Below, piece by piece: positions 17,771 to 45,981 of a DNA stretch of 64,000 nucleotides (within the stretch, counting starts at the first letter, position 1; each line of letters starts with the position of its first letter). This stretch comes from Sinohyriopsis cumingii (Eukaryota > Mollusca > Bivalvia > Unionida > Unionidae), in assembly GCA_028554795.2 (NCBI GenBank), contig CM068830.1:112719214-112783213 (forward strand), read 5' to 3'. The position numbers were made by a program, and so were the translations under genes. The notes under the pieces were generated by a model. It saw nothing but the letters and a program-made list of their open reading frames with translations. It made no database searches and was not told the DNA's origin.

Positions 17771-18110
17771 TAGTGAATGGGGCCACCCTAGGGACAATGG
17801 GACTTAGCATTAAAAACACCCCTGGGCCACTCTAGGGACAATGGAAATTTAACATGGAGAAAAACGCTGGGTCACTTTAGGGACAATGGGAATTTAACAT
17901 AGAGTTTGGGCTTGTCTAGGGACAAGGAATTGAACATGGGAATAGAGTTTGGGTTTGTCTAGGGACAAGGGGAATTGAATATGGGATTTTTTTTTTTTTT
18001 TAAAGTTTTTTTAAATTTAAATTTAAATTTAAATTTAAAAAAGGGTAGGCAATGGAAAGGCTATCTCTTTTCGAGAAATATGTCTGGCCCTGAAAAGGGC
18101 CTTTGGGTTT
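17771..18110 (+). repeat. Polinton left terminal inverted repeat
   Basis: This is the inverted partner of 35209-35559. Its outer half is five degenerate 40-45 bp sub-repeats of the type GGCCACTCTAGGGACAATGG followed by AATTTAACATGG. An (AAATTT)n palindrome follows near 18010-18040. The inner end holds a histone-type stem-loop and purine box on the minus strand, pointing outward. Length differences from the right copy are mainly in the T-run near 17990. Confidence 0.95.
18061..18101 (-). terminator. histone-type mRNA 3' end signal (stem-loop plus purine box) of the 77-aa gene
   Basis: On the minus strand GGCCCT-TTTC-AGGGCC (18101-18086) forms a perfect 6-bp stem with a 4-base loop. It is followed by a purine-rich CTCGAAAAGAGATAG box (18077-18063). 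It starts 25 bases after the stop of the leftward gene at 18126. It fits the animal histone stem-loop pattern GGYYYUUYUNARRRCC, and it lies inside the TIR. Confidence 0.85.
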
Positions 18111-18125
18111 ATGTTAATGTATTCA

Positions 18126-18359
18126 TTAACATAAATGGTACCGCATTGGTCTTCTTCTTGTCCTTAGGCTACGTCTCACTGTTGGTCCGTAAATCAGCAC
18201 TCTTTTCAGGCATCCTTGTCTTTCAACGTAGATCCTACGTATCCACAGGCTGGTGTTTGTCCTATGGACAACAGTCCACTTGGATCGGACATACATGAGC
18301 ATGTCCGTCCTAAACATCATGGAAGACACAAGGGTGGATGACTCAACTGTGGTCCACAT
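18126..18359 (-). CDS. small Arg-rich basic accessory protein (77 aa), unknown function
   Basis: I do not recognise a family. The protein is 77 residues, Arg-rich (RRSLRTRRRPMRYH at the C-terminus), with no membrane segment or signal peptide. It is believed real because it has a complete transcription unit on the minus strand: TATAAATA at 18411-18404, an ATG about 45 bases downstream, and a histone-type 3' stem-loop 25 bases after the stop. It is divergently paired with the gene at 18579 across about 220 bases. The stop and 3' signal lie next to or within the left TIR, mirroring the rightmost gene at the other end. It could bind nucleic acid because of its charge, which is only an inference. 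Confidence 0.6.
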   Translation of the reverse strand: MWTTVESSTLVSSMMFRTDMLMYVRSKWTVVHRTNTSLWIRRIYVERQGCLKRVLIYGPTVRRSLRTRRRPMRYHLC

Positions 18360-18578
18360 CTTGAAGCGACGAGAACAGGTGAATCAATATAGTGAACTGC
18401 GCTTATTTATAGGCAGAGGTAGGATTGAAACGGATTGAGTTCATTCACCAATCCGAACACGCGTTACAAAATTCAGTCAGCTTGCATCCAATCCGAAGAG
18501 AACAGTTTGTGACGTCACGTGGTCTATATAGATTCGCTAGCGCTTGTGTGCAGTCAATCTATGCGACAGTGATTCAAC
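18360..18578. promoter_or_regulatory. bidirectional promoter of the left accessory gene pair
   Basis: Divergent core promoters: TATAAATA on the minus strand (18411-18404) and TATATA on the plus strand (18525-18530). Just upstream of the plus TATA are a palindromic CRE-like TGACGTCA (18510-18517) and an overlapping E-box-like CACGTG. Three CAATCCG words (near 18431 inverted, 18449 and 18489) resemble CCAAT boxes. A three-codon upstream ORF, ATGCGACAGTGA, lies at 18561-18572 in the probable leader of the plus gene. Confidence 0.6.
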
Positions 18579-19139
18579 ATGACGGAAACTCAGAAAACGA
18601 TCCATTGGGGTGCACCAGCATGGGAGACTGCCCAAGGGAACCCGGACTTACTTTCAGAAGAGGTGAATTGGGATTTTGTGGATTTTCTTACCTCGCAAGA
18701 ATTTGTTTCGGAACCTTCGTTACCTTCTTCATTACCGCAAGTGGAGAATTTTAGACAGAGACAGAAAGAAGAATTGGAGAAATTTATGCAACGACAAAAG
18801 GAAGCGGAACAAGCTTTTCTCCTACAGCAACAGCAACAGCAAGAAGAAGAGGTAAGAAAAAAACAACAGCAACAACAGCAAGAAGAAGTAGCAGCAAAGA
18901 AACAAGAGGGTGAAAATCAAACGGCTACGGTACTGTTGGACATTTTAGCGGAGTTAAGAAGTCTGAAACAAATGTATCAGACTTCTTTATCACGACCGAA
19001 GAGAATACGACCTTCCCGAGCTAAACACGCCAACCCTGTGACTAAGCCTGTCGTACCACCCTTAGTGATTTCAACCCAATCATCAGAAGTAGGCCTTGGC
19101 CGTGGCAAAGGCTTAAGGCAGTTAAAGTTGATTGGTTAA
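18579..19139 (+). CDS. Gln/Glu-rich coiled-coil accessory protein (186 aa)
   Basis: Family not recognised. The N-terminal 50 residues are acidic and Trp-containing (IHWGAPAWETAQG). Residues about 55-120 are a long charged coiled coil with two polyglutamine tracts. A helical stretch (TVLLDILAELRSLKQMY) follows, then a basic tail with PKRIRPSRAKH and GLGRGKGLRQLK. The layout of acidic head, coiled coil and basic tail suggests a DNA- or RNA-associated oligomeric protein, which is an inference. The start has a TATA box about 50 bases upstream, and a histone-type stem-loop starts 28 bases after the stop. The poly-Gln style resembles the right-end gene at 32132. Confidence 0.75.
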   Translation: MTETQKTIHWGAPAWETAQGNPDLLSEEVNWDFVDFLTSQEFVSEPSLPSSLPQVENFRQRQKEELEKFMQRQKEAEQAFLLQQQQQQEEEVRKKQQQQQQEEVAAKKQEGENQTATVLLDILAELRSLKQMYQTSLSRPKRIRPSRAKHANPVTKPVVPPLVISTQSSEVGLGRGKGLRQLKLIG

Positions 19140-19166
19140 ACTCACTCCTACACCATAAAGAAAAAA

Positions 19167-19206
19167 GGCCCTTTTCAGGGCCACCCACATTTCTCGAAAA
19201 GAAATA
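19167..19206 (+). terminator. histone-type mRNA 3' end signal of the 186-aa gene
   Basis: GGCCCTTTTCAGGGCC (19167-19182) is preceded by an A-rich flank and followed by ACCCACAT, the canonical histone 3' flank. CTCGAAAAGAAATA starts about 11 bases after the stem, where the U7-binding downstream element lies in histone genes. An AATAAA occurs further down at 19233-19238, so a back-up polyadenylation site is possible. Confidence 0.88.
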
Positions 19207-19428
19207 CAATTTCAATTTGCCAATAACTCAAAAATAAACCCCACCCATTTTACCCTTATAGCACGTGTCTGTGTATGAGTGCGTGAGTGTAGCTTCTTAT
19301 TTTAAAATCAAAACTCAAAGACACTTACCTTATATCATTAATGTATTCTTTTCTCCATAGTTACAATCCAATTCACAATTCACAACAGAACACTTTAAAA
19401 AGTTCGTACACTTCTTCTTTCTCATTAT

Positions 19429-19921
19429 TTAGTCTCTCTGTTTTTTGAATTTCTTCACCGTTTTTTCCTCATTTTCTTCCCTTCTTCTTTTCTTCTCCTG
19501 TTTCTTAGCCTCTTTTAAATAGAATTGTCTTCTTTCTTCCTCTTCTTCCTCTGAAGAATCCCTCTCTTCTTTCGAAGAATCCCTCTCTTCTTCCGAAGAA
19601 TCCCTCTCTTCTTCTGAAGAATCCTTCTTTTCTTCTCACTCCTCTTGTTTCTTTTTTGGGCAATCTGGAGACCAATGTCCTTTTTCTTTACAATAATAAC
19701 AGGTATCTTGACTTTTGTCTTTTTTAGTCCCTGTTTTTTTTTTTTTTTTGACGGTCTGGACACTCTGAAGACCAATGCCCTTTCTTCTGACAGATATAGC
19801 AAGTATTCTGACTTTTATCTCGAAAGGAAGGAGAGTAGTCCGTAGGCTGGTCTGAAGAGAATTTTCTAATGACCCCTCGCAAAGCTCTGACGAAACGTTC
19901 CATCTGGGTAGTCTCTTCCAT
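19429..19921 (-). pseudogene. zinc-knuckle protein with acidic Ser/Glu tail, frame-shifted
   Basis: A leftward gene encoding two CCHC zinc knuckles (C-X2-C-X4-H-X4-C): CYICQKKGHWSSEC and CYYCKEKGHWSPDC. Such knuckles bind single-stranded nucleic acid. The start is ATG at 19921, below a TATATAAAAGG box at 19984-19973. The first knuckle's frame ends at 19724; the second knuckle lies in another frame, and the switch falls at a run of 16 A residues (19734-19749 on the plus strand as T). A TGA at 19638-19636 then interrupts, after which the same frame continues with repeated DSSEEER units and a Lys-rich end to 19429. The run could be a sequencing length error, a real mutation, or a slippage site. 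No histone-type stem-loop follows it. Confidence 0.6.
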
Positions 19922-19972
19922 CGTTGTGCTCGGTTTGAGAGTGAAATGAATAGTGAAAGGACAAGACACACA

Positions 19973-20009
19973 CCCTTTTATATACGCTGGTTTGTCATGA
20001 CTATAAATT
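19973..20009. promoter_or_regulatory. divergent TATA boxes of zinc-knuckle gene and DNA polymerase
   Basis: TATATAAAAGGG reads on the minus strand at 19984-19973 for the zinc-knuckle gene. CTATAAATTA reads on the plus strand at 20001-20010 for the polymerase, 46 bases before its ATG. The two start sites are back to back. Confidence 0.65.
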
Positions 20010-20055
20010 AGTCTATGGTGTTTAAACTTGAGTCATTTGACGTTTTGCACTCAAG

Positions 20056-23000
20056 ATGAAACGATCCTATTCATTCGAGAAGAAAGAAGAAGAAGAAGAA
20101 AGTAAGAGGCAGAAACGTGATCTATCGCCTCGTACCAGGGCTGAAATCTTGGCACAAATTCATGCCAGTGATTTTGAAGAGGACATGAGCGAACCAGAAT
20201 CCGAACCCTCTAAGCCAAGTTCACCACCCTTAGTCAACCCTGAAAAGTACTATTCCATTCGAGAGACGGAAAAGCGCTCCTCTAGAAAATTTAGAACCAC
20301 GGCTTACAAATACACGGTGAAGTTTAACGATTTCAAGGCCGACGTACCCTTGGAGAAAGCAGAAGGGTTTATCACCGAGATGTGGGATTCTTTGCTCACC
20401 TCACTCAAGCGACAATGTCAACCCAAAGAAGACGATCGCTTGACACTATCCATAGATCACGACGGTTTGAAATCCCCTGTTTGGATCGAGTTTAGCAGAC
20501 CCGCAGAACTAACCCCTTCCAAAGTCATGGACAAGATTCAACACGTACAACAATCTAATGACCAGTTTGACATCACCGATGGTAAAGCCACACTGAAAAT
20601 GGCTCACGTCTCTCTTCCTCAAGGGACAGGACGCAAAAAGATGTTATTGGTGGACGACCTTCGCAACACCAAAACAAGTCTCGTCCGAATTTACAACCCT
20701 CAAGACCAGATGTGCTTAGCCCGTGCCATCGTGGTGGGACGAACCTATGCCAACAAGAACGACACGGTAGAATGGAAAAGAACCTGGGAGAACATTCGAA
20801 AATCGAACCGAACCAAACAACGAAACGAAGCAGAACTCCTGTTGCAACAAGCTGGCCTGTCCAAAGACACACCCTGTGGCATTCCTGAGATGCAAAAATT
20901 GCAAGATGCCCTAGCTCCACGCTACACCTTGAAAGTGCACCCTCAAGAAATGCGCGGGCCTCTGTTGTTTCGAGGCCAAGACTTTAAGGACGGAAAATAC
21001 ATTCATGTTTATCATCACGATGACCATTTCGATACCATTACCACTATCACCGGATTCCTGGGATACAGATATTACTGTGAGAAATGTGACTATGGTTATA
21101 ATAATCGAGAGCAACACAAGCAGTGTGGATGGAAATGCCCAGGATGTTTGGCCTCTCCACCCTGTCTGAGCGAAGAACCAGTGCCTTGTTCAACTTGTCT
21201 GCTCACGTTTGTCAGCCCTACCTGTTACCAACAACATTTGAAAACACAAGGTTCACAGCAGAAATGTGCTTGTCAACTGCTGAGATTGTGCCCTACGTGT
21301 AGACAAGGCATACGTACCAACAGTACCAAGGCACACGTATGTCGAGGAAAGAAAAAATGTCACATTTGTCACCACATCGTCGACTTGGAACACCAATGCT
21401 ACGTGCAAAAATACCAACCCCCACCAGAGAAAGAGGACGGTCACAAGAAGAAAAGCAATTTCATCTTTTTCGATTTCGAATGCATGCAAGAGACCGGCAT
21501 TCACATTCCTAATTTCTGCGTGGCTCATCGAGCGTGCGAGAAGTGCATTCAAGAACCTATCTTCAGTCATTGCCCTCACTGAAGCAAGATTCCTGAAGGG
21601 CGTGAAAAAATCTTTCGAGGACAGAACACGTTAGCCGATTTTGCCCAATGGGTCTTAGATCCCATCGACAAGACGTGGAGCCAAGAGGACATCGAACGTT
21701 ACGGAGATTGTCATCGTCATGCCACAGTGATGGCTCACAATTTCTCCGGATACGATGAACAGTTTCTTCTCAGATACTATACGGAACAAGGCACCGAGCG
21801 TCCTAAAGTGACTTTGAACGGAGCCAAAATCATTTTCATGCAAGTGGGACAAGTGCAGTTTAAAGATTCGATGAGTTACTTGGCCATGCCTTTGAGTCGA
21901 ATGCCTAAAACGTTTGGAATGACAGAAATGGCTAAAGGGTACTTTCCTCACTTTTTCAATACGGAAGCCAATCAACATGCCGTTCTACCCCATTTACCTG
22001 AGGCTCACTATTACGACCCCGACAACATGCGTACCGAACAACGAGAAGCTTTCTACGCTTGGTACCAAGCTCACGCCTCGGACCCTTCCGACTTTCAGGA
22101 AGAAATGCTAACGTATTGTCGTTCCGACGTGGACATTTTACGGCGTTGCTGTGGAAAATTTCGAGAACTGTTCATGGAACACGGAGGGGTCGATCCTTTG
22201 AAAGAAGCTTGCACCATTGCCAAAGCGTGTTCCTTAGTGTATCGACAACGATTCATGCCTGAAAACACTGTGGCTGTCATCAGTCCTCAAACGACCCACT
22301 TTGTCAAACGTCAATGCTCGGTCAAAGCCCTACGTTGGTTACATTACTTGTGCGACAAGGAAGACAAGTGGATTCAGCATGCCCGCAACGGAGGGGGCGA
22401 AAAGACCATCGGAACGTATTCGGTCGATGGCTGGGACTTAGAAAACCCCAAGATCGTGTAGGAGTTTAACGGTTGCTTATTTCACGGATGTCCCGTCTGT
22501 TACCCTGACCGTGGCACTAAAAATCAGTTTTTGCAACGAACCATGGAAGACTTGTACCAGGACACTTGTCAGCGGCGCCTAAAGTTGGAACAGGAAGGAT
22601 ACCAAGTGGTGGAAATGTGGGAACACGAGTACGATCACCGTATGAAAACCGATCCCGAGTTTAAACGCCTCGTGGAAAGTTACCAGTTCATGGACCCGCT
22701 GAACCCGAGGGATAGTTTGTACGGAGGAAGGACCAATGCCACCTGTTTGCTGTACCAAGCCGACGAAGAGAAAGGAGAAGAAATCAAATACTTGGACGTG
22801 TGTTCGTTGTATCCCTACGTGTGCAAATATTGTCGCTTTCCTGTAGGGCACCCGCAATTGCTGACGGAACACATCGACCTGAAAAACATTCGACAATACG
22901 AAGGCTTGATCAAGTGTAAAGTTTTGCCTCCCACGAACCTATACCATCCCGTCTTACCTCACCATTGTCAAGGCAAACTGATGTTTCCCTTGTGCCGTAC

Positions 23001-24123
23001 TTGTGCCGAAACGTGGAACCAAGATCAGCCTTGTCAGCACACCCAGGAAGAACGGGCCTTGACGGGAACCTGGGTCAGCGTAGAATTGTTCAAAGCTCTG
23101 GACATGGGATACCAACTGTTAGAAGTGTACGAAATTTGCCACTTTCCCAAGACACAACAGTACCACAAGGGTGACCCTACTCAGAAAGGCATTTTCGCCG
23201 ACTACGTGGATGCCTTTTTGAAACTGAAGCAAGACGCCAGCGGCTATCCTTCCTGGTGTCACACTCCCGAAGACCAAATAAAATTCAAAGAGAAATACTA
23301 CGAACAAGAAGGCATCTCTTTAGACCACATCGAGAAAAACGAAGGCAGGCGATCGTTTGCCAAAGTGATGTTAAATTGCTTGTGGGGTAAAATGACACAA
23401 CGACTGTGTTTACCCAAGACGGAATATTTGACAGAACCTTCCCGCTACTTCCAGATGATTCACGACAAAACCAAATACATGAAACACGTGGACGTCGTTC
23501 GAGAGGTTTTGATCTTGGTCAATTACGAAGAAGATCTGGACTTTGTACAAGACGACCCTTTTGGAAATGTCATCATTGCGGCTTACGTGACAGCTCATGC
23601 TCGCTTAAAATTGTACGAAGCTTTAGAACTGTTAGAAGAACGCGTCCTGTACTTTGACACGGACTGTTGCATTTACATCCATCACCCGATTCAACATCAC
23701 CCTGACATCGAAGGAGACCGTTTAGAAGCCTGGACAGACGAGCATCCCGACGACAAGATTCTAAGTTTCGTCAGTGGCGGCCCCAAAAATTACGGCTACG
23801 AATACCGGGACAAACAAGGAGAAGTGCACACGACGTTCAAAGTGAAAGGACTGACTCTGAATTATCGTACCAGTCGAGTGGTCAACTTTGGGGTATTGAA
23901 AGAAGCCATGCAATCGGGAGAGGATGGAAACTTTAAAGTGACCACCTATCAACCGAACACGATTGTACGTTTACCCACTCACCACATCGTCAGTCGACCC
24001 TTGGAAAAAGTCTATCAAATTGTATACCAGAAGCGAGTGCGACTTCCCAATCACTTTACGTTGTCGTATGGTCACGTCGGTATTGGTCTGTATATAAAAA
24101 GGAACCCTAGGCAAGATCGATAG
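20056..24123 (+). pseudogene. polB: Polinton family-B DNA polymerase, two in-frame stops
   Basis: Replicates the element; Polinton polymerases are thought to be protein-primed. One frame of 1,355 codons runs from ATG 20056 to TAG 24123, interrupted by TGA at 21580-21582 and TAG at 22459-22461 with no frame change. An N-terminal region has several Cys-rich zinc-binding clusters (for example KCHICHHIVDLEHQC, codons about 435-450). The 3'-5' exonuclease follows: ExoI FFDFEC near 472, ExoII AHNFSGYD near 558, ExoIII YCRSDVD near 686. An insert with FHGCPVC follows. The polymerase motifs are A DVCSLYP near 914, B KVMLNCLWGK near 1102 and C YFDTDC near 1198. Catalytic residues are all present, but the stops separate ExoI from ExoII and the exonuclease from the polymerase, so this copy is probably inactive unless stops are read through. 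Confidence 0.95.
24091..24100 (+). promoter_or_regulatory. TATA box within the 3' end of polB
   Basis: TATATAAAAA overlaps the last codons of the polymerase gene and would start a transcript near 24120-24125, for the small gene that follows. Confidence 0.5.
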
Positions 24124-24190
24124 TTCATTGTTCATTGAAGTAACTTACCATGTCGTTGACGAAGAAGAAACCAGATTGGTTAGGAGTCAA

Positions 24191-24541
24191 ATGTTGGACA
24201 TCACCGAGACCAGGGTTTTGAGGCTTGGACACAAGAGATGGCCCAGTATGCACGAGAGTTATTCAAGGAAAAAAGTTACTTTTCAACCTGTGTTAGTGAC
24301 GGTGCCAGAAGAACCCGTCACCCAGGACAGGACTGTCGTGGACAGGCCTGAAAGACCCTTTCGGGAGGACACTTGTGTGACCTTACCCCTTACTATAGAA
24401 CTGGTTACAACTTTACCCAAAACATGTGGTTGTTGTACAGACACTTGTTTTTATTCCACGTTCATGGTTATCATGTGCCTTTTATCCTTGTACTTAAGCC
24501 TTTGGCTTTTATGTATTTTTGTCTTTCGTATTCATGTTTGA
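24191..24541 (+). CDS. small protein with C-terminal membrane segment (116 aa), frame uncertain
   Basis: The longest frame between polymerase and ATPase is open from 24128 to 24541, with its first ATG at 24191. It gives a protein with a Pro/Arg/Glu-rich middle and a single strongly hydrophobic segment of about 22 residues near the C-terminus, followed by a short basic tail, so it may be membrane-anchored. A TATA box at 24091 and an AATAAA at 24556 frame it. The first ATG after the predicted start of transcription is at 24150 in another frame. That frame stops after 23 codons, and a neighbouring frame then reads a helix-like WTQEMAQYARELFKEK. The true product may therefore be a frame-broken different protein. 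No family recognised. Confidence 0.35.
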   Translation: MLDITETRVLRLGHKRWPSMHESYSRKKVTFQPVLVTVPEEPVTQDRTVVDRPERPFREDTCVTLPLTIELVTTLPKTCGCCTDTCFYSTFMVIMCLLSLYLSLWLLCIFVFRIHV

Positions 24542-24631
24542 AAGAAAAAACATTCAATAAACGTGTTCTGAAAAAGAATATAAACTCTTGTCTTGTTTGT
24601 TTTTCGTGTCACAAGTGACATTTCTCACACT

Positions 24632-25375
24632 ATGGCTACCTCTGCTGTCTCTGCTCCCTCTTCCTCTACTGTCAAAGTCATCGACGAACACTTAGATCGT
24701 GCCAGTTGGGAGGATTTGTATCTTCGCCATCCCTTTAACATGCTCATTGCTGGACCTAGCGGTTCAGGCAAAACCGAATTCGTCAAACGTTTGATCGAAC
24801 ATAAACATCATTTGATCGATCGGCCACCTCAACGGATCGTGTGGTGTTACAAAGAGTGGCAATCGGCGTACAACCTCTTGCGAGAAAGTCAAGGCGATTC
24901 CATCGTGTTTGTGGAAGGCATTCCTAAAGAAGACGACGGCATTGTCTCTGACTCCCGTCAAACCCATTTGGTCATTTTCGACGACATGTTAGGAGAAGAC
25001 GAAGAAGAAATTAAACTGTGGTTCACGCGCAAAGGGCATCACCGTAATGCCAGTGTCGTTTACATCACCCAAAATTTGTTTCAACAAAGTAAAGCCCATC
25101 GCACCATCAGTCTCAATGCGCATTACGTGGTCTTGTTTAAAAGCCCTCGAGATAAATCACAAGTACAAGTCTTAGCCAAACAGTTAGGAACGCCTTGGCT
25201 GACTCAGGCGTACGACGATGCCACTCAAACGCCACACGCCTATTTACTCGTCGATTTGAAATCTACGACTCCCGAGGATTTGCGATTTCGTACCCACTTG
25301 TTTCACCACTGGTGCCAAGACGGAGGGCCTGTCCTGTACACGTCTCCGTCCTCGACTTCATTTCACTCCCCATGA
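24632..25375 (+). CDS. FtsK/HerA-type genome-packaging ATPase (247 aa)
   Basis: Hydrolyses ATP to pump DNA into the capsid, as in adenovirus IVa2-like and Polinton ATPases (family knowledge). Walker A GPSGSGKTEF lies near residues 41-50 and Walker B HLVIFDDML near 110. A sensor-like segment VVYITQNLF follows near 140. The length is normal for the family and there are no interruptions. The start chosen is the first ATG (24632) after a TATAAA at about 24581-24586; an open stretch upstream lacks an ATG. It lies between the small membrane protein and a basic protein, and its own TATA box suggests a monocistronic transcript. Confidence 0.93.
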   Translation: MATSAVSAPSSSTVKVIDEHLDRASWEDLYLRHPFNMLIAGPSGSGKTEFVKRLIEHKHHLIDRPPQRIVWCYKEWQSAYNLLRESQGDSIVFVEGIPKEDDGIVSDSRQTHLVIFDDMLGEDEEEIKLWFTRKGHHRNASVVYITQNLFQQSKAHRTISLNAHYVVLFKSPRDKSQVQVLAKQLGTPWLTQAYDDATQTPHAYLLVDLKSTTPEDLRFRTHLFHHWCQDGGPVLYTSPSSTSFHSP

Positions 25376-25382
25376 AAAAAAA

Positions 25383-25391
25383 TCTATAAAA
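25383..25391 (+). promoter_or_regulatory. TATA box of the 300-aa basic protein gene
   Basis: CTATAAAAA lies 8 bases after the ATPase stop and about 40 bases before the next ATG. Confidence 0.6.
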
Positions 25392-25430
25392 ACGTCAGAC
25401 CCTTTTTCGTCTGTCTCACACAGTGTGAAC

Positions 25431-26333: not shown

Positions 26334-26339
26334 AAAAGG
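26329..26339 (+). promoter_or_regulatory. TATA box overlapping an upstream stop codon
   Basis: TATAAAAAAGG contains the TAA stop of the 300-aa gene (26331-26333) and lies about 54 bases before the next ATG. Confidence 0.6.
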
Positions 26340-27472: not shown

Positions 27473-27489
27473 CACAAAAAAAAATAAAA

Positions 27490-28599
27490 ATGGAAAAAGT
27501 CTTAGCCAGCATTTACTACGATCCCTCCCATCCTGCAGGTTACGCAGGACTTCAAAAATTGTATCGTGCTGCCAAAACTCGACTGAAAAGTCTCCGTTTA
27601 CCTCAAGTGCAACGATGGTTACAAGAACAAGCTACCTACACTTTACACAAACCCATTCGACGCAAGTTTGCCAGAAGTCGCACCCGAGTGGAAGGCATCG
27701 ATCATCAATGGCAAGCCGATTTAGCCGATGTCTCTCATTTGGCCAGCTACAATCGTGGCTACAAATATTTGTTTTGTGTCATCGACGTCTTTTCCAAATT
27801 TGCCTGGGTCGTGCCTTTGACTTCCAAATCGAGCAGCGAGTTAGTGCGAGCCCTGCAACGGGTGTTGAAACAAAGCGGTCGTCACCCTCTTCGATGGCAA
27901 ACGGACAAAGGCACCGAATTTCTGAACCAAGCTTTCCAAAAAGAATTAAAGAAATGTAACATTCACTTTTTTATAAACGAAAATACCGAAACCAAAGCCA
28001 GCATCGTGGAACGTTTTCAACGCACTTTGAAAGAACGCATGTGGAAACATTTTACGCATCACCACACTCTGAAGTACATCGAGATCTTACCACACCTGGT
28101 GCAAGCGTACAACCAATCTTACCATCGAAGCATCGGACGTGCCCCGCAAGACGTGACTCCCGACAACGAAGTGTTGGTGTTTGAGCGTCTGTTTGGTACG
28201 TCCCCGACGAGGGCTGTCCCCGAGAAAAGTGGAATGTTGGCCGTAGGAGATTGGGTGCGCATTGGCAAAACCAAACGCACTTTCGACAAAGGTTACTTAC
28301 CTAACTGGACGACCGAATTGTTTCGCGTCACTGGACGAGTGCATGGCCGTCATCCTGCCGTCTATAAATTGGAAGACATGAACGGAGAAGTGCTCAAAGG
28401 AACGTTTTATTTGCCCGAGTTACAACGTGTCACCAAAAAAGAAGACGACGTGTACGACATCGAAAGCATTCTCGAATGCAGAACCCGTAAAGTGGGCAAA
28501 CGACGTGTCAAAGAAGTCAAAGTACGTTGGAAAGGATATCCACCCAGTTTTGATTCTTGGATCGACGCTTCGCAAGTCATCGACTATAAAAAGAAGTGA
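27490..28599 (+). CDS. int: retroviral-like integrase with C-terminal chromodomain (369 aa)
   Basis: Inserts the element into host DNA by DDE strand transfer and makes the 6-bp duplication. The rve catalytic core shows the triad: Asp in WQADLADVSH (near residue 80), Asp in WQTDKGTEF (near 138) and Glu in KASIVERFQRTLKER (near 175). A chromodomain occupies about residues 315-365 (VYDIESILECR, VRWKGYPPSFDSWIDASQV) and could steer insertion to methylated-histone chromatin. The reading frame is intact. The ATG at 27490 is the first in frame after a stop-rich leader. The insertion found here, inside another transposon in AT-rich DNA, would fit heterochromatin targeting, but one site proves nothing. 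Confidence 0.95.
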   Translation: MEKVLASIYYDPSHPAGYAGLQKLYRAAKTRLKSLRLPQVQRWLQEQATYTLHKPIRRKFARSRTRVEGIDHQWQADLADVSHLASYNRGYKYLFCVIDVFSKFAWVVPLTSKSSSELVRALQRVLKQSGRHPLRWQTDKGTEFLNQAFQKELKKCNIHFFINENTETKASIVERFQRTLKERMWKHFTHHHTLKYIEILPHLVQAYNQSYHRSIGRAPQDVTPDNEVLVFERLFGTSPTRAVPEKSGMLAVGDWVRIGKTKRTFDKGYLPNWTTELFRVTGRVHGRHPAVYKLEDMNGEVLKGTFYLPELQRVTKKEDDVYDIESILECRTRKVGKRRVKEVKVRWKGYPPSFDSWIDASQVIDYKKK

Positions 28600-28604
28600 C
28601 CATC

Positions 28605-29021
28605 ATGCCCTTTCACACAGCGGACGCAGCTACGTCGACCACTCCTCCTTCACCTAGTTCTTCTGTGCAAGATTTACAAAAACAACCCTTGTGGGTGTGG
28701 TGTGGAGAACGTGTGCCTAAAGCGCAAATCGTCTTTTTTTGCCAAATCTTTGTGGTGTATTGTGTCATCGGGGCAGCCATCGCCAATTTGAGTTTGCAAC
28801 AAGGAGACAAACAATTGTGGACCATTTTATTGAGCAGTTGCATCGGTTACCTGCTTCCTAATCCCTCCCTGAAATTCACCTCGAAAGGGAACCCCGGGAA
28901 CCTTGTGTCCAGTGCCAGTGCCAGTCACCACTTCAACCACAACCAGAACCCCATTTTAGACGGAGACACGCCTCTGACGTCCACTAACCCCTCGGACAGC
29001 CACAGAACTCTGGAATTATGA
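28605..29021 (+). CDS. Polinton two-TM membrane protein (138 aa)
   Basis: A Ser/Pro/Thr-rich N-terminus precedes LWVWCGERVPKAQIVFFCQ, then one hydrophobic span (FVVYCVIGAAIANLSL) and a second (LWTILLSSCIGYLLPNPSL). A Ser/Asn/His-rich tail follows. The pattern W..GERVP...VFFCQ...L, then W..LLSS..GYLLPNP.L, is one I recall as a conserved small Polinton membrane protein of unknown role, perhaps in virion membrane or entry. A TATA box (CTATAAAAA near 28583) lies in the integrase tail. Its stop codon overlaps the ATG of the minor capsid gene (ATGA at 29018-29021). Confidence 0.75.
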   Translation: MPFHTADAATSTTPPSPSSSVQDLQKQPLWVWCGERVPKAQIVFFCQIFVVYCVIGAAIANLSLQQGDKQLWTILLSSCIGYLLPNPSLKFTSKGNPGNLVSSASASHHFNHNQNPILDGDTPLTSTNPSDSHRTLEL

Positions 29022-29941
29022 GTCACCAAAGCCAATTTTACTTAACTTTACCCAGTGACAGTTCCATGGAGGTGTTTCCCAAGAACACGTTGTGCTGTTA
29101 CACGTCCAAATTACCTCAGGCCATCCAGTTAGATCACGAAGCCCATTGGGAAGTGGCTTTAGTAGAAATCATTCACCCGACTCAAGTCCTCAATGTCCTT
29201 CCCAATCAAAATTTTTTTGATGTGGAAGTTCATGACGAGCAAATGCAACAGTGGATGGATAGCAATGTCAAATATGACAAGAAAACCCGTACACAAAAGT
29301 ACACCACCTATCACTTGTTCATTCCCCCAGGCTATTATTTTAGTGGTCAACATTTGGTCAGCACCATAGCCTCCAGGTTTAATGTCGTGTTTCTGAAAGC
29401 TTTGGAGCATGTCAACAAAAGTGTCACCATGGAGTACCACAAAGCAGCTCGTCGCTTCTTGATGAAATTTGAACGAAGTAAAATCCTGTCCATTTTATTT
29501 TGTCCTGAATTGTTTGACATGTTGGGCGGAGACATGGACATGAGAAAGGCCATGCTCAGAAAAAACGAATTACCCATCGTTTACGACAACGAGTCTTTTA
29601 GCAAGTCATTTCGTGCCCCGGTAGAATTGAACCAAGGACTGAATTTGATGTTCGTGTATTCCGATGTGGTGGAGTACAACGTGGTGGGACACACCTCCGT
29701 ACCGTTACTGCGTGTCATTCCTTTCAAAGTGGATTCTGCCACGAACACTGACGAGGAAGGTGGAAACACTTACCACGTCCACCGCGAATTTGTACATCCT
29801 CACTATTTGCCTGTCAGTAAGTCGTATTTGGACACGGTCAACATTGCTATAAAAGGAGATCTGGGACAAAATATTCCATTCACCAAAGGAAAAGTCACGG
29901 TGAAACTCCATTTTCGAAAACGGTTCTCTCACGACTCGTAA
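29018..29941 (+). CDS. minor capsid protein, penton-base homologue (307 aa)
   Basis: Single-jelly-roll capsid vertex protein of Polintons. It begins with the family-like FYLTLPSDSSMEVFPKNT and continues with TSKLPQAIQLDHEAHWEVAL and VEIIHPTQVLNVL. The C-terminal half includes GHTSVPLLRVIPF, YLPVSKSYLDTVNIAI and TVKLHFRKR, as in other copies. The length is typical and there are no interruptions. It overlaps the membrane protein stop by four bases, and is followed by the pVI-like protein and the major capsid gene, the usual Polinton morphogenesis block. TATAAAAGG near 29850, inside its 3' end, could serve the next gene. Confidence 0.9.
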   Translation: MSHQSQFYLTLPSDSSMEVFPKNTLCCYTSKLPQAIQLDHEAHWEVALVEIIHPTQVLNVLPNQNFFDVEVHDEQMQQWMDSNVKYDKKTRTQKYTTYHLFIPPGYYFSGQHLVSTIASRFNVVFLKALEHVNKSVTMEYHKAARRFLMKFERSKILSILFCPELFDMLGGDMDMRKAMLRKNELPIVYDNESFSKSFRAPVELNQGLNLMFVYSDVVEYNVVGHTSVPLLRVIPFKVDSATNTDEEGGNTYHVHREFVHPHYLPVSKSYLDTVNIAIKGDLGQNIPFTKGKVTVKLHFRKRFSHDS

Positions 29942-29948
29942 GTAAGTC

Positions 29949-30364
29949 ATGTATCCAGTGTACCGAGGGGTTTCTCGACAGCGAGGACACGGCTTAGGAG
30001 ACATGTTAAAATCGGCCTTTCGTTCGGTGGTACGGTGTTGAAACCGATGGTGACACGCGGATTGCACGCCTTGAAAGATGCGGCACTGACGCAAGGCAAA
30101 GAATTTCTCCAAAATGTCATCATCGACAAACGAAACCCTAAAGAAGCCTTCATGAGGGCAGGCAAAAATGTCTTGCTGCAAACGGGTAAAGACATTTTGG
30201 GTCGCCGAGACACACCTATAAATGCCCTGCACGCTACCGAGTCAGGCATTCAGCAAGGACAAGGCAGAAAGAGACGACGAAGAAAACACCCTTTCACCAG
30301 ACTTCAAGCGAGAAAGGCCAAGAAAAGAAGAACCGTTCGAGACTTAGACGTTTTCGATTATTGA
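29949..30364 (+). pseudogene. pVI-like small virion protein, frame-shifted
   Basis: The first frame starts at ATG 29949 with MYPVYRGVSRQRGHGLGDML and stops at 30041. The continuation lies in another frame, open from about 30035 to 30364: a helical part (VTRGLHALKDAALTQGKEF), IDKRNPKEAFMRAGKNVL, then a nuclear-localisation-like GRKRRRRK and a basic tail ending DLDVFDY. In Polintons a small protein beginning with a YPVYRG..GHGLG pattern lies just before the major capsid gene and is likened to adenovirus pVI, an internal capsid cement and membrane-active protein. The frame change falls at about 30025-30041. It could be a real mutation or a sequencing slip. Confidence 0.65.
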
Positions 30365-30383
30365 GAAAGAGAACAGAACAAAA

Positions 30384-31700
30384 ATGATGCACCGAGAGTC
30401 TTGCGCCTGTTCCAAGACGGAACTGGATCTGTTTGCCATGCCCCCCACCATGATGACGATGCAAGAATCCCAATGGGTGGAATTTCATCCCGTCTCCTCA
30501 TTGGCCGATTCCGCTCCCATCGAGTTTGAAATCAAAGGACAGCCCGAAGATTACATCGATCTGAATAGCAGTTACTTGTATTTGAAAGTCAAAGTTCTAG
30601 ATAAGGGAGGAGATTCTATAAGCGGCGAAGAGAAAGTAGCTCCCGTCAACAATTTCATGCATTCCTTGTTCAGTGGAGTGGACTTGTACTTGAATAACAA
30701 ACTGGTCAGTAGCAGCATGGATACTTACCCTTATCGTGCCTACCTGGAAAATCTCTTGACGTACGGAATAGATGCCAAGAACACTCATCTCAATGCCTGT
30801 GTGGTATGGGAAGCTGACGAACCTACGAAGTTTGAAATATTGGAAACTGATGAAAAGAAAGACAACAATGATGGATTTCTAGAACGAAGAAAGAGAATCA
30901 CGGGAGCCGACACAAGTTTAGAACTAATGGATCGTTTGCATTTGGACATGTGGTTCCAAGAAAAGTATTTGCTGAACGGGGTGGATGTCCGCCTGAGACT
31001 GAATCGTAGCAGTACCGCTTTCCATTTATTGGCTGATAGTGACGGTTACAAAACCAAAATCCAAGAAGCCAGACTCTACGTAAGCCGTGTGGAAGTGTTA
31101 CCTAAAGTGGGAAACGACATCAGTCAGACGTTGAGCAGAACGACCGCCAAGTATCCCATACGACGCGTGGAAGTGAAAACCTTCACCATTCCCAAGGGAC
31201 AGCGATCCATGATCGAAGATCATCTGTTCCAAGGACAGTTACCCAAACGTTTAATCGTTGGTATCGTCGAGAATACAGCCTTCAACGGAGCTGCCGAAAA
31301 AAATCCTTTCTACTTTCAACACTTTGGCGTGTCCAAAATCGAAGTCAGTCGCGATGGCAAGACCTTGTGTACCCGACCTTTCGAACCTGACTTTACCAAG
31401 AAGAATTACTTGAGATCGTACTTGTCCCTGTACGAAGCCACCGGACAGTTAGGAACCAATACCAGTCACGGTATTACGTACGAGGATTATGCAGGAGGCT
31501 ACGATTTGTGGGCTTTCGATTTCACTCCAGACCAAGGCAGCGACGAGGGACATTTCCACCCTATAACATCCGGCCAGATTCGTGTGGAAATTCAGTTTAA
31601 AGACCGAGACCCTGATGAAACGGTGAACGTCATCCTGTATGCAGAATTCGATAATACCATAGAAATCAACAGTTTGAGAGAAGTCATCCTAGATTACTAG
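30384..31700 (+). CDS. major capsid protein, double jelly roll (438 aa)
   Basis: Hexon-like shell protein of the Polinton virion. Conserved stretches include WVEFHPVSSLADSAPIEFEI and DYIDLNSSYLYLKVKV at the start of the first barrel, NNFMHSLFSGVDLYLNNKLV, and YPYRAYLENLLTYG. In the second barrel RSMIEDHLFQGQLPKRLIVG, FKDRDPDETVNVILYAEFDN and the terminal INSLREVILDY are visible. The length is typical for the family and the frame is intact. The ATG pair at 30384 follows the upstream gene by 20 bases; a TATA-like CCTATAAATG lies at about 30214. Downstream are two AATAAA signals in a tandem duplication, so the mRNA is probably polyadenylated, unlike the accessory genes. Confidence 0.95.
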   Translation: MMHRESCACSKTELDLFAMPPTMMTMQESQWVEFHPVSSLADSAPIEFEIKGQPEDYIDLNSSYLYLKVKVLDKGGDSISGEEKVAPVNNFMHSLFSGVDLYLNNKLVSSSMDTYPYRAYLENLLTYGIDAKNTHLNACVVWEADEPTKFEILETDEKKDNNDGFLERRKRITGADTSLELMDRLHLDMWFQEKYLLNGVDVRLRLNRSSTAFHLLADSDGYKTKIQEARLYVSRVEVLPKVGNDISQTLSRTTAKYPIRRVEVKTFTIPKGQRSMIEDHLFQGQLPKRLIVGIVENTAFNGAAEKNPFYFQHFGVSKIEVSRDGKTLCTRPFEPDFTKKNYLRSYLSLYEATGQLGTNTSHGITYEDYAGGYDLWAFDFTPDQGSDEGHFHPITSGQIRVEIQFKDRDPDETVNVILYAEFDNTIEINSLREVILDY

Positions 31701-31750
31701 AAACCATGGAAGACTGTTATCCCTCTTTACCTAGTGGAGAAACTTTTAGT

Positions 31751-31935
31751 GTTGGATTATTGTTAAAAAATGTTAGAGTTGTTGTTGTTTAGTGTTAAGT
31801 GATTTTTGAATAAAAAATGTTGTGTTTTGAAAAAATTGTTTGATGTTATATTGTTGGATTATTGTTAAAAATGTTAGAGTTGTTGTTTAGTGTTAAGTGA
31901 TTTTTGAATAAAAAATGTTGTGTTTTGAAAAAATG
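31751..31935 (+). terminator. duplicated 3' UTR with two poly(A) signals
   Basis: A ~100-bp segment (GTTGGATTATTG... TTTTTGAATAAAAAATG) is tandemly duplicated after the major capsid gene. Each copy holds an AATAAA (31809-31814, 31907-31912) followed by a GT-rich stretch. Confidence 0.75.
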
Positions 31936-32036
31936 CCTTTGTCTTTTGTTTAGCTATAAGAATGTTGGATTGATGCTCTTTCATTTCTCACTATCCCTCT
32001 CATGACACTCACTAAACGTTGCGACTCAAAAACCGT

Positions 32037-32077
32037 GTGGGGGATGTTTTCCTTCACGTCCGCGCTTTGACTTTAAG
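32037..32077 (+). promoter_or_regulatory. right-end accessory promoter module, copy 1
   Basis: GGGGATGTTTTCC, then TTCACGTCCGCGCTTTGA, then a TATA-like CTTTAAG at 32071-32077. The same block precedes the next two genes. The TATA variant suggests weaker or initiator-dependent use. Confidence 0.75.
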
Positions 32078-32131
32078 AACCGGGGTTGTTTCCAGTCTAA
32101 CCATCCATTGTCGACTCATCCTCCTACGAAG

Positions 32132-32491
32132 ATGTGCTCCAAACTAGCTAAGCTCAACGAAGCCTACGTGAATTTGCATAGGGTCAGACACAGTCTGATA
32201 CCGAAGCCAGAAGAAATAGAGAATGTGAGAATGTTAAAGATCACTGAAGACCTGATAGAAGAGCTCTTCAGAGAAGAAATGAACAGGGAAAAAGAAGAAT
32301 GGACAGAGAAGTACAGACTTCAGAGACAGCAGCAACAGCAGCAACAACAACAACAGCAGCAGCAACCTGAAGCTGACAGAGGCTTTGTCGATTGTCGTAT
32401 CGACACCAAAGAGTTCTTCTTCTCTTTTCGAAGAAGCAGACCTATCGCCAGAAAGTCTATCCTCAGAGGACATCGCATTCTTAGAAACTAA
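32132..32491 (+). CDS. helical poly-Gln accessory protein (119 aa), right-end family member 1
   Basis: Unknown family. The N-terminal 65 residues are predicted helical: MCSKLAKLNEAYVNLHRVRH, then LKITEDLIEELFREEMNREK. A run of about 13 Gln follows, then a short acidic-to-basic tail (RRSRPIARKSILRG). Its first 20 residues align with those of the next gene (MNTRLSKLLELHVHLEYARR): hydrophobic, Lys/Arg and Glu positions coincide, so they are paralogues. It starts at the first ATG after the shared promoter block. A histone-type stem-loop begins 35 bases after the stop. Confidence 0.75.
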   Translation: MCSKLAKLNEAYVNLHRVRHSLIPKPEEIENVRMLKITEDLIEELFREEMNREKEEWTEKYRLQRQQQQQQQQQQQQQPEADRGFVDCRIDTKEFFFSFRRSRPIARKSILRGHRILRN

Positions 32492-32525
32492 AAAAGAATG
32501 CCATAGCAAACAAAAAAAAAAAAAC

Positions 32526-32565
32526 AGCCCTTTTCAGGGCTACCCCAATACTCTAGAAAAGAAAT
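32526..32565 (+). terminator. histone-type mRNA 3' end signal of the 119-aa gene
   Basis: AGCCCTTTTCAGGGCT (32526-32541): 6-bp stem, TTTC loop, the invariant second G-C pair kept. The 5' flank is a long A run ending in C, the 3' flank is ACCCCA, and the purine box CTCTAGAAAAGAAATAA follows. An AATAAA appears about 65 bases further on. Confidence 0.88.
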
Positions 32566-32854
32566 AACGATCGATTTGCCAATGTGTGTAGGTAGAGTAG
32601 TGTGAAAATAAACACTAACTCTTTTTTTAAAAATGTGAGCATATGTGTTTGTGTGTTTGTGTTTGTAAGTGCTTAAGTAAGTTGGTATGGATAGTAGATT
32701 AAAATGATGTCTTTTTTTTGGTGTTTGAGGTGTATATTTGGAGTTAGATTGGATTGCTTTGCGTATGTGGATAGTCTATTGAAGTGATTTATAAAAAGTT
32801 TTAAAATAGTGATGGGTAGCATAAAAAAGTGAGTGAGTGTTTCTTTTAGGTCCG

Positions 32855-32948
32855 CGCGTTGTTTCTTTTGGTCATGATCTAGGTAAGATCAATTTTATGT
32901 TTTTTAGGGGGGATGTTTTCCTTCACGTCCGCGCTTTCACTATAAATT
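32855..32948 (+). promoter_or_regulatory. right-end accessory promoter module, copy 2
   Basis: A first GTCCGCGCGTTGTTT box, then a TGATCT-AGGTA-AGATCA dyad (about 32874-32890), then GGGGATGTTTTCC with CACGTCCGCGC and TATAAATT at 32941-32948. The same order recurs at 34455-34561. Confidence 0.75.
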
Positions 32949-32998
32949 GAAACTCGCTGGGCAGTCTAGATACCCTTGTTGATTGATCAACACCAAAA

Positions 32999-33379
32999 AT
33001 GAACACGAGACTGTCTAAACTGTTGGAACTTCATGTGCATCTGGAATATGCCAGGCGCCTGTTGAATGAACTGGCCGCGGAAGCCATTGTGGAAGACGGA
33101 AGGATGAGAGAGGAGGAGGAAAGAAGAAATAAAGAAGAGGAGGAGAGAAGATATAAAGAAGAAGAGGAAAGAAGATACAAAGAGGAGGAGAGAAGAAACA
33201 AAGAAGAGGAGGAGGAGGAGGAAAAGGAGAGAAGAAGAAGAAATTTCAGAATCCCAGAAACCGAAAATTGGGATTCTGAAGCGACATATCCTGCCTCTGC
33301 TCTCTCCCCCAAAAAGGTAAAAAGTAACTGGGGGATAAGATGTGTATGCGGCTCCAGGCCTGGAAGGTGCCACCATTAA
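32999..33379 (+). CDS. helical Glu/Arg-rich accessory protein (126 aa), right-end family member 2
   Basis: Unknown family. The N-terminal helix MNTRLSKLLELHVHLEYARR is paralogous to the preceding gene. Residues 38-80 are a near-perfect RRNKEEEE/RRYKEEEE repeat that would form a single long charged helix. The tail contains RIPETENWDSEATYPASALSP and a Cys/Arg-rich end. The start ATG 32999 is 52 bases below TATAAATT. A histone-type stem-loop begins 29 bases after the stop. Opposite-strand open frames here are shadows of the repeat. Confidence 0.75.
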   Translation: MNTRLSKLLELHVHLEYARRLLNELAAEAIVEDGRMREEEERRNKEEEERRYKEEEERRYKEEERRNKEEEEEEEKERRRRNFRIPETENWDSEATYPASALSPKKVKSNWGIRCVCGSRPGRCHH

Positions 33380-33407
33380 CCAGGTGTCCATGAAGTTCCA
33401 AAAAAAC

Positions 33408-33447
33408 AGCCCTTTTCAGGGCTACCCAATACTCTAGAAAAGAAATA
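33408..33447 (+). terminator. histone-type mRNA 3' end signal of the 126-aa gene
   Basis: AGCCCTTTTCAGGGCT (33408-33423), 5' flank AAAAAAAC, 3' flank ACCCA, then ACTCTAGAAAAGAAATAACC. It is nearly identical to the copy at 32526 over about 80 bases, including GATTTGCCAATGTG-like sequence downstream, so the gene 3' ends were duplicated together. Confidence 0.88.
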
Positions 33448-33544
33448 ACCATCAATTTGCCAATGTGTAGGTAGAGTAGTGTGAATATAAACACTAACTC
33501 TTTTTTAAGATAGTGTGAGGGTATGTGTTTGTGTGTTGGTGCTT

Positions 33545-34440
33545 GTAAGAGCTAAGGTATGTTTGTGTGAATAGTAGATTATGGGTTTCTTTATTGTTTC
33601 TTAGCGTAGGTGAAGAGTATAGTTAGGGTTCTGTAAGCGCTCACGTACGATTGTGTGGATAGTAGATTATGGATTTTGTTTATTGTTTCTTAGCGTACGT
33701 GGAGAGTATAGTTTGGGTTTTGTAAGCGCTCACGTACGATTGTGTGGATAGTAGATTATGGATTTTGTTAATTGTTTCTTAGCGTATGTGGAGAGTATAG
33801 TTAGGGTTTTGTAAGCGCTCACGTACGATTGTGTGGATAGTAGATTATGGATTTTGTTTATTGTTTCTTAGCGTATGTGGAGAGTATAGATTGGGTTTTG
33901 TAAGCGCTCACGTACGATTGTGTGGATAGTAGATTATGGATTTTGTTTATTGTTTCTTAGCGTATGTGGAGAGTATAGTTAGGGTTTTGTAAGCGCTCAC
34001 GTACGATTGTGTGGATAGTAGATTATGGATTTTGTTAATTGTTTCTTAGTGTATGTGGAGAGTATAGTTAGGGTTTTGTAAGCGCTCACGTACGATTGTG
34101 TGGATAGTAGATTATGGATTTTGTTTATTGTTTCTTAGCGTATGTGGAGAGTATAGTTAAGGTTTTGTAAGCGCTCACGTACGATTGTGTGGATAGTAGA
34201 TTATGGATTTTGTTTATTGTTTCTTAGCGTATGTGGAGAGTATAGTTAGGGTTTTGTAAGCGCTCACGTACGATTGTGTGGATAGTAGATTATGGATTTT
34301 GTTAATTGTTTCTTAGTGTATGTGGAGAGTATAGTTAGGGTTTTGTAAGCGCTCACGTACGATTGTGTGGATAGTAGATTATGGATTTTGTTTATTGTTT
34401 CTTAGCGTATGTGGAGAGTATAGTTTGGGTTATATTATAA
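33545..34440 (+). repeat. 89-bp tandem repeat array (10 units)
   Basis: Unit starts (GTAAGCGCTCACGTACG) lie at 33633, 33722, 33811, 33900, 33989, 34078, 34167, 34256 and 34345, exactly 89 bp apart; a diverged tenth unit begins at 33545. Each unit carries the palindromes AGCGCT and CGTACG, then GTGTGGATAGTAGATTATGG and GCGTATGTGGAGAGTATAG. Units differ at only a few bases. A degenerate relative lies at about 32640-32800, after the previous gene. It sits between two accessory genes and directly before the next promoter. Confidence 0.93.
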
Positions 34441-34454
34441 GAAATGAAAAAGTA

Positions 34455-34561
34455 GGGGATGTTTTCCTTCACGTCCGCGCGTTGTTTGGTCATGATCTAG
34501 GTAAGATCAATTTCATGTTTTAGGGGGATGTTTTCCATCACGTCCGCGCTTTCACTATAAG
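34455..34561 (+). promoter_or_regulatory. right-end accessory promoter module, copy 3 (duplicated boxes)
   Basis: Two boxes in tandem. The first is GGGGATGTTTTCC with CACGTCCGCGCG at 34455-34482, followed by the TGATCT/AGATCA dyad; the second is GGGGATGTTTTCC (34524) with ATCACGTCCGCGC and TATAAG at 34556-34561. Confidence 0.75.
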
Positions 34562-34611
34562 AATCCACAGTGTTCGTCGTTAGCACCATTCTACGGAATA
34601 ACGGAAAGAAA

Positions 34612-35196
34612 ATGGTAGCTGTATCTGACCTGTTCAACAACTTAAAGGAAACATACTACTGGATGATAGACAGTGAATATGTAGTGGAAAGAATTGAAAG
34701 AGAATGGAGGATAAGAAACAGTCTGGACTTTGCTAACAAACTAAAAGTAGCCAGGGAGAAGATAGAGGAGTTAATAGAAGAAGAGGTAAAGAAGTTGAGA
34801 GGGTTTATTAATCCTGCATATGTCAAAATTGGAATGTTAAAAGAGGCCTTGGACAATGTTGTAGAAGTAAGGTACTTTTTGGAAGGAATGGTGAAATGGT
34901 TAGATTGGCCATTTGTCATAAGAGGTCTGGAAAAGCTGAAGAAAGCTGAAGAATTGATAAGAAAAGTAATGGTGGAAGAAGTAAAGAAGATAAAGGAGAC
35001 ATGGAGTAAAGAAAGAAAGGATGAACAGAATAAGAAGAAGAAATTAGAATTCGACCAACTGAATAACAACTGGATGAAAATACAGGCCAAGTTCCGAGCC
35101 ATGGGTCACCCGGACTGGATACCGGAAACAGAAAAGAAAAAGAAGAAAGGAATGATGGACAAAATAAGAGGATGGTGGAAAAAGTTAAGAAGTTAA
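34612..35196 (+). CDS. helical accessory protein with internal duplication (194 aa), right-end family member 3
   Basis: Unknown family. Two copies of one ~60-residue helical module are visible. Copy 1 contains LKETYYWMIDSEYVVERIE and KLKVAREKIEELIEEEVKKL; copy 2 contains LKEALDNVVEVRYFLEGM and KLKKAEELIRKVMVEEVKKI. Residues at LKE, Y and EE.KK coincide. The module also resembles the N-terminal halves of the two preceding genes (LIEELFREEM). A Lys/Glu-rich tail with a Trp-containing end follows (MDKIRGWWKKLRS). The start is the first ATG after TATAAG; upstream GTG codons are not used. A histone-type stem-loop begins 22 bases after the stop and lies inside the right TIR. Confidence 0.75.
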   Translation: MVAVSDLFNNLKETYYWMIDSEYVVERIEREWRIRNSLDFANKLKVAREKIEELIEEEVKKLRGFINPAYVKIGMLKEALDNVVEVRYFLEGMVKWLDWPFVIRGLEKLKKAEELIRKVMVEEVKKIKETWSKERKDEQNKKKKLEFDQLNNNWMKIQAKFRAMGHPDWIPETEKKKKKGMMDKIRGWWKKLRS

Positions 35197-35208
35197 AAGA
35201 AGAAGAAA

Positions 35209-35559
35209 AAACCCAAAGGCCCTTTTCAGGGCTAGCCATATTTCTCGAAAAGAGATAGCCTTTCCATTGCCTACCCTTTTTTAAATTTAAATTTAAATTT
35301 AAATTTAAAAAAACTTTTTTAAAAAAAATTTTTAAAAAATCCCATATTCAATTCCCCTTGTCCCTAGACAAACCCAAACTCTATTCCCATGTTCAATTCC
35401 CCTTGTCCCTAGACAAGCCCAAACTCTATGTTAAATTCCCATTGTCCCTAAAGTGACCCAGCGTTTTTCTCCATGTTAAATTTCCATTGTCCCTAGAGTG
35501 GCCCAGGGGTGTTTTTAATGCTAAGTCCCATTGTCCCTAGGGTGGCCCCATTCACTACT
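35209..35559 (-). repeat. Polinton right terminal inverted repeat
   Basis: Reverse complement of 17771-18110, almost base for base apart from the poly(T)/(A) tract near 35320-35340. It contains the same five sub-repeats, the AAATTT palindrome and the stem-loop signal. Confidence 0.95.
35218..35258 (+). terminator. histone-type mRNA 3' end signal of the 194-aa gene (in the TIR)
   Basis: GGCCCT-TTTC-AGGGCT (35218-35233): five Watson-Crick pairs closed by a G-U wobble. The flanks are CCCAAA and AGCCATA, and the purine box CTCGAAAAGAGATAG follows. It is the mirror copy of the signal at 18061-18101. Confidence 0.83.

Positions 35560-45977: not shown

Positions 45978-45981
<4 letters not shown>

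Follow-up and report, generated by a model that had tools for sequence, protein, structure and literature searches.

Histone-type 3' ends count as the hallmark of replication-dependent histone genes. In animals, according to the sections of PMC9756948 available to us, SLBP binds the stem-loop of the histone transcript, the U7 small nuclear ribonucleoprotein (snRNP) pairs with an element further downstream, and CPSF73 cleaves the RNA, to which no poly(A) is added; this happens chiefly in S phase. Here we describe 3' ends of this type on five genes of a Polinton in Sinohyriopsis cumingii. The element lies in a stretch of 64,000 nucleotides (nt) of assembly GCA_028554795.2 (contig CM068830.1, 112,719,214-112,783,213 of the forward strand), which we call the window and to which all coordinates refer. 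It spans 17,791 bp (17769-35559) and is a Polinton, with the PolB, A32-like ATPase, integrase, terminal repeats and 6-bp target duplication found in Polintons, Mavericks and adintoviruses. Its ends and the duplication were read directly, and it contains matches to PF03175, Pox_A32, rve and Chromo.

Five short genes stand at the two ends of the Polinton, g1 and g2 on the left and g3, g4 and g5 on the right. All were recognised as open reading frames (ORFs). The first, g1 (18126-18359, 77 amino acids), is on the minus strand. The plus strand carries g2 (18579-19139, 186 amino acids, glutamine-rich), g3 (32132-32491, 119 amino acids, read from its ATG), g4 (32999-33379, 126 amino acids, highly charged) and g5 (34612-35196, 194 amino acids, helical). 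A preliminary description had placed a hairpin 22-35 bases past each of the five stop codons. We found the hairpins at those positions and, by our count, the stems begin 24, 27, 34, 28 and 21 nt past the stop for g1 to g5. The stem-loops occupy 18101-18086 (g1), 19167-19182 (g2), 32526-32541 (g3), 33408-33423 (g4) and 35218-35233 (g5). Behind each of them follows a spacer of 13 nt, or 14 nt in g3, and the previously noted purine box. The box begins with GAAAAG in all five, at 18072, 19196, 32556, 33437 and 35247. The complete 3' ends cover 18061-18101 on the minus strand and 19167-19207, 32526-32567, 33408-33448 and 35218-35258 on the plus strand. Two stems are GGCCC/GGGCC, two are AGCCC/GGGCT and one is GGCCC/GGGCT with a terminal G-U. 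The ACCCA-like flank, described earlier for three of the five, is an exact ACCCA in two cases and ACCCC in one, and the remaining two hairpins have AGACA and AGCCA. The pattern GCCCTTTTCAGGGC has five exact matches in the window, and 11 matches with up to three mismatches against 2.83 expected.

As checks, the preliminary description had named a covariance-model search and a comparison with the histone genes of the host. RF00032, with a curated cut-off of 34 bits, matched all five hairpins and nothing else in the 64-kb window up to an E-value of 5. The g2 (41.2 bits) and g1 (35.0 bits) ends scored above the cut-off, and the g4 (31.0 bits), g5 (30.5 bits) and g3 (29.3 bits) ends below it. For the host we used the histone arrays as a yardstick. 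H4 has 114 matches in the genome, mostly in tandem arrays, and one array unit (L061) contains H4, H2B, H2A, H1 and H3, each with a stem-loop accepted by RF00032 (35.0-39.4 bits). The stem is GGCCC/GGGCC, as in the element, in four of these genes and GGTCC/GGACC in H1. The stem, the 13-14-nt spacer and the GAAAAG box agree between all five host genes and all five element genes. In host H4, AATAAA overlaps the purine box. A covariance model built solely from the five host genes found exactly the five element sites in the window, with 49.3, 50.1, 46.2, 52.8 and 40.7 bits for g1 to g5, and the next site reached 13.4 bits. RF00032, the host model and the gene comparison together confirm the histone-type 3' ends on five Polinton genes. 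Another array unit (L062) carries an inversion, with oppositely oriented H4 genes about 1.5 kb apart.

The g1 and g5 hairpins lie inside the terminal inverted repeats, and are therefore copies of one sequence and not independent events. Their position would suit a different explanation, in which the hairpins act as DNA or in some other RNA role, for example in end replication or as transcription terminators. We find this hardly credible, since the other three hairpins lie outside the terminal repeats and all five stand 21-34 nt past a stop codon in the orientation of the gene. Moreover, the unpaired spacer and the purine box, for which such a role would have no need, also agree with the host histone genes.

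The right-end genes resemble histone genes on their upstream side as well, which was absent from the preliminary description. We compared one host histone unit with the whole window by BLAST. All matches above 34.7 bits fell inside the element, and the best match outside it scored 34.7 bits. Inside, the highest scores were 55.2 bits for the 3' ends and 41.0 bits for the regions before g3, g4 and g5; one purine-repeat coding match of 39.4 bits was taken as low-complexity. A motif of the host histone promoters stands on the plus strand before g3 (32041-32066, where 23 of 24 bases match the sequence before host H2B) and before g4 (32910-32935, followed by TATAAA). It occurs twice before g5, at 34456-34480, which was found in the BLAST comparison with the host histone unit, and at 34525-34550, where 24 of 24 bases are as upstream of host H2B. 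The sequence GATGTTTTCCATCACGTCCGCGCT stands unchanged before host H2B and before g5, and the H1 version differs at one of 26 bases. A further plus-strand stretch before g4 (32816-32860) resembles the region upstream of host H4 at 78% over 45 nt, and its final 21 bases are identical. Save for this stretch, the similarity between host and element ends near the motifs. The motifs might have been captured from a histone gene or might have arisen by convergence.

When scored against the host histone promoters, g3, g4 and g5 reached 22, 25 and 25, scores attained by none of 60 dinucleotide shuffles for each. The upstream regions of six core genes scored 10-14 and ten flanking stretches 11-14, and none stands out. 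A histone-like promoter for g1 and g2 was rejected, as both scored 14, and four and six of 60 shuffles, respectively, reached this score. As judged by these motifs, g3-g5 carry histone signals at both ends, and in g1 and g2 such signals are confined to the 3' end.

The same signals are abundant in the host genome. An exact search of its 2.9 Gb gave 30,300 sites for the promoter motif, some of which must be host H2B genes, and 33,189 sites for the hairpin with its ACCC flank; the reversed control gave none in either case. Because of these numbers we suggest that the genome contains about 10,000 copies of the element. The first 100 promoter sites listed form 42 clusters, often spaced by about 860 and 690 nt like g3, g4 and g5. 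Extrapolation from these gives about 12,700 clusters by site count or about 18,200 by density, both from exact matches at one chromosome end. A hairpin follows downstream on the same strand, at a distance of 410-847 nt, for 49 of 91 listed promoter sites (45 of them at 410-499 nt), and on the opposite strand for none. A hairpin also stands 250-900 nt upstream of 39 of the 91, as tandem genes would have it.

A genome-wide Histone3 search was scored for its best 75 candidates, 50 of which we examined, 30 as 3-kb and 20 as 1-kb loci. All 50 places adjoin g1, g2, g4, g5 or an alternative last gene of the element. No histone gene is among them because the ranking favours element copies, which score up to 45.6 bits, above the host histone genes. 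In the 30 3-kb loci we found proteins similar to g1 (in alignment) and to g2 at 18 loci each and to g4 at 12. Since the Histone3 loci had been chosen by the hairpin, we used PolB to pick eight further copies out of 75 scored. The g2 hairpin was present in all eight and the g1 hairpin in seven. All eight belong to the same Polinton family (85-96% over the main stretches). The occurrence of such hairpins in related Polintons, which the preliminary description had made a test of its claim, holds for related copies of one family in one genome, to which our comparison was confined. At one locus (L167) two left ends of the element stand head to head within one stretch of 3.5 kb, and C119 has two oppositely oriented PolB places about 7 kb apart.

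The host model gave 60 matches in the 30 3-kb loci, of which 45 hairpins were distinct. In these the six pairs are formed in 98.1% of the cells, and the terminal pair is G-C in 31, A-U in 10, G-U in one and unpaired in two. Among 100 hairpins listed from the genome, the terminal pair was always A-T or G-C and never mixed, though the search pattern permitted mixing. This change separates gene lineages, and few events may lie behind it. The promoter motif stands 250-900 nt upstream of 46 of 60 listed hairpins of the A type (A-U terminal pair) and of only three of 40 of the G type (G-C), a split that fits g3 and g4 against g1 and g2.

We compared 13 right ends, namely 12 copies and the window, by mean pairwise identity in 20-nt bins, with gaps counted as differences. 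The coding part had an identity of 0.14-0.76, the promoter motifs 0.81-0.88, and the stretch that runs from the hairpin to the purine box 0.88-0.97. Since the loci were found by the hairpin, the last of these values is inflated; the promoter value is not. A relative of g5 adjoins the last hairpin in five of the 12 copies (tblastn). At least four of the other seven (L001, L005, L020 and L024) have a different short protein there, with a promoter and a hairpin of the same kind. In 19 left ends the g1 hairpin showed 0.93-0.98 identity against 0.63-0.89 in the g1 coding part. The whole upstream region shared by g1 and g2 was also highly conserved (0.83-0.98).

The best explanation, which we consider probable from these cis-signals, is that the end genes give tail-less, S-phase mRNAs processed through SLBP and U7. 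The host SLBP and U7 snRNP would cut the transcripts of g1-g5 just past the hairpin, without a poly(A) tail, and histone promoter factors would turn on g3-g5 in S phase. The mRNAs would be used while SLBP is present and destroyed when S phase ends, which would tie the accessory proteins to host DNA replication. The PolB, ATPase, integrase and putative capsid genes would stand outside this programme. We infer tail-less mRNAs because the element has the cis-signals for the SLBP and U7 steps in the host's own dialect. Of the reading in the preliminary description, the use of host histone-mRNA processing is thereby supported; the limit to S phase is still something that we infer, and it gains from the promoter motif of g3, g4 and g5.

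Several observations speak against this explanation. The promoter motif is missing from g1 and g2, and from nearly all of the listed G-type hairpins. Three of the five hairpins fall below the RF00032 cut-off, with E-values of 6.4e-5 (g4), 9.5e-5 (g5) and 2.7e-4 (g3). The g2 hairpin (0.69-0.72) is not outstanding among the left ends, where two of the 19 rows fall short of it. A search for the host U7 with RF00066 gave three matches, all below the cut-off and none convincing, so that the shared purine box is what points to a U7 step. The search for host SLBP with PF15247 gave no match, and it detected no positive control either. AATAAA stands 51 nt (g2) and 66 nt (g3) past the end of the hairpin, so polyadenylation of these two mRNAs is also possible. 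In the window copy, stop codons break the PolB frame (20041-24123). Finally, the evidence covers one Polinton family in one genome.

The missing promoter motif of g1 and g2 would be expected if the histone-type ends were functional and used for poly(A)-free processing, export or translation, with S-phase timing incidental or absent. The 3' signals suffice for histone-type processing, which also favours this alternative. However, g3-g5 carry the promoter motif in addition, and motif and hairpin co-occur on one strand across the genome. We therefore regard incidental or absent S-phase timing as unlikely.

The AATAAA signals past g2 and g3 and the stops in the PolB of the window could instead indicate that the hairpins are relics of sequence acquired from a histone gene and carried along in copying, the mRNAs being polyadenylated further downstream. 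Thousands of copies of one family would look alike even without selection. On the other hand, neither AATAAA nor ATTAAA occurs between the g1, g4 or g5 hairpin and the end of the element, and PolB is free of stops in most of the places listed across the genome, with many frames of about 1,360 codons. At the right ends the coding part is less conserved than the promoter and hairpin bins, even if the hairpin value is inflated by the choice of loci. The terminal pair remains either G-C or A-U, and other copies have a different last gene between the same promoter and hairpin. We conclude that relic hairpins are quite improbable.

Beyond the probable production of tail-less S-phase mRNAs, we tentatively propose, as a possibility that the motifs raise, that the transposon took over the histone-gene expression programme of its host. 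Short intronless genes with the motif and the 3' end would then give tail-less mRNAs in S phase only, perhaps in histone locus bodies. Expressed copies could compete with histone mRNAs for SLBP and U7 and so tax or sense the histone supply. The exact hairpin sites number about 33,000, as compared with roughly 550 histone hairpins, the latter estimated from about 110 H4 copies times five genes. This raises the question of a conflict over histone processing factors. If the explanation is true, the mRNAs of the element would be missed by poly(A)-selected RNA sequencing. In the copies, the SLBP/U7 site and the histone promoter motif are also available in thousands of natural versions.

It is our guess that the end-gene proteins are needed while DNA replicates and the element has an opportunity to copy itself. 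The proteins of g2-g5 had no histone family match in Pfam (g1 was searched against PHROGs only). For g5 we found 10 relatives, all among unnamed metagenome proteins, and its structure model has a mean predicted local distance difference test (pLDDT) score of 79.

The rest of the element is that of a usual Polinton. The target duplication AACATT flanks it on both sides (17763-17768 and 35560-35565). The left terminal inverted repeat (17769-18110, plus strand, 342 nt) contains the g1 hairpin, and the right one (35209-35559, minus strand, 351 nt) the g5 hairpin; they align at 96.6% over 351 columns. The PolB region (21727-24123, plus strand) is in separate pieces, with PF03175 matched in two of the stop-to-stop frames (1.2e-15 and 4e-23), and by this family match it is predicted to be a protein-primed-type DNA polymerase B. 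It is followed on the plus strand by the A32-like packaging ATPase (24593-25375; PF04665, 6.9e-8) and by the retroviral-type integrase with a chromodomain (27457-28599; PF00665, 6.2e-14 and PF00385, 3.2e-7). Two putative capsid ORFs (30384-31700 and 29018-29941), considered as candidates for the double jelly-roll major and minor capsid proteins of Polintons, had no relevant match in Pfam or PHROGs, and the former had none among PDB sequences either. Two identical 56-nt repeats carry AATAAA at 31809 and 31907, 109 and 207 nt past the stop of the 30384-31700 ORF, so that its poly(A) context is an ordinary one, unlike that of the end genes. Between g2 and PolB, minus-strand ORFs at 19515-19971 contain CxxCxxxxHxxxxC, which we take to be a zinc-knuckle-like motif, and have no histone-type 3' end. 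Similar ORFs are present in the copies picked by PolB. An 89-nt unit is repeated in about 10 tandem copies between g4 and g5 (33586-34420) and is 96-97% alike in the middle of the array. Outside the Polinton, the window contains retroelement endonuclease and reverse transcriptase ORFs (46975-50167 and 51737-52384). MicroRNA family matches at 45909-45993 and 60342-60486 were rejected as artefacts, being simple TA/TG repeats below the family cut-offs.

We also looked for relatives. The closest named animal relatives of PolB are from oysters, with one more named relative in a clam-symbiont assembly and one that is a coral adintovirus. For the host H1, the nearest protein stands at 98%, and the nearest that carry a name come from Mytilus and oysters; by these relatives the host is likely a mollusc and probably a bivalve. 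In viral contigs, the PolB of the window was confirmed in none of 11 stretches, and this collection is without a close relative; the exact hairpin pattern had no match there. A PolB alignment was confirmed in 264 of 369 stretches of the viral contigs, and 77 loci with 26-42% identity were kept, in which the host model reached no more than 18.6 bits. A prokaryote scan gave four matches, about the number expected by chance on a rough estimate, and the host model reached at most 22.3 bits in them, in the stem region only. The parts of PMC8097293 and PMC11071296 available to us do not mention histone-type ends or promoters in Polintons, and the available part of PMC11071308 has no matching passage. 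Among the matches listed from the open-access literature, no report describes a mobile element whose non-histone genes combine a histone promoter motif with a histone 3' end.

Another link between animal DNA viruses and histones is found in the Histoid proteins of Adomavirus, as far as the available part of PMC11071296 describes them. These are histone-like proteins encoded by the virus, whereas here the signals of histone genes surround other proteins. With the replication-dependent histone mRNA 3' end (RF00032; SLBP, U7 snRNP) the element shares the 6-bp stem, the 4-nt loop, the position past the stop codon and the purine box at 13-14 nt, with details matching the host histone genes. It differs in that five genes of a mobile element, none of them a histone gene, carry this end, at which cleavage is predicted. 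With the host H2B, H1 and H4 promoters of the L061 unit it shares the 24-26-base motif and the H4-like stretch before g4, but in the element the motif stands before g3, g4 and g5, and g1 and g2 are without it. From Polintons, Mavericks and adintoviruses it is set apart by its histone-type ends and promoters. It is the combination that is new, as the element is otherwise an ordinary Polinton and its histone signals are ordinary histone signals.

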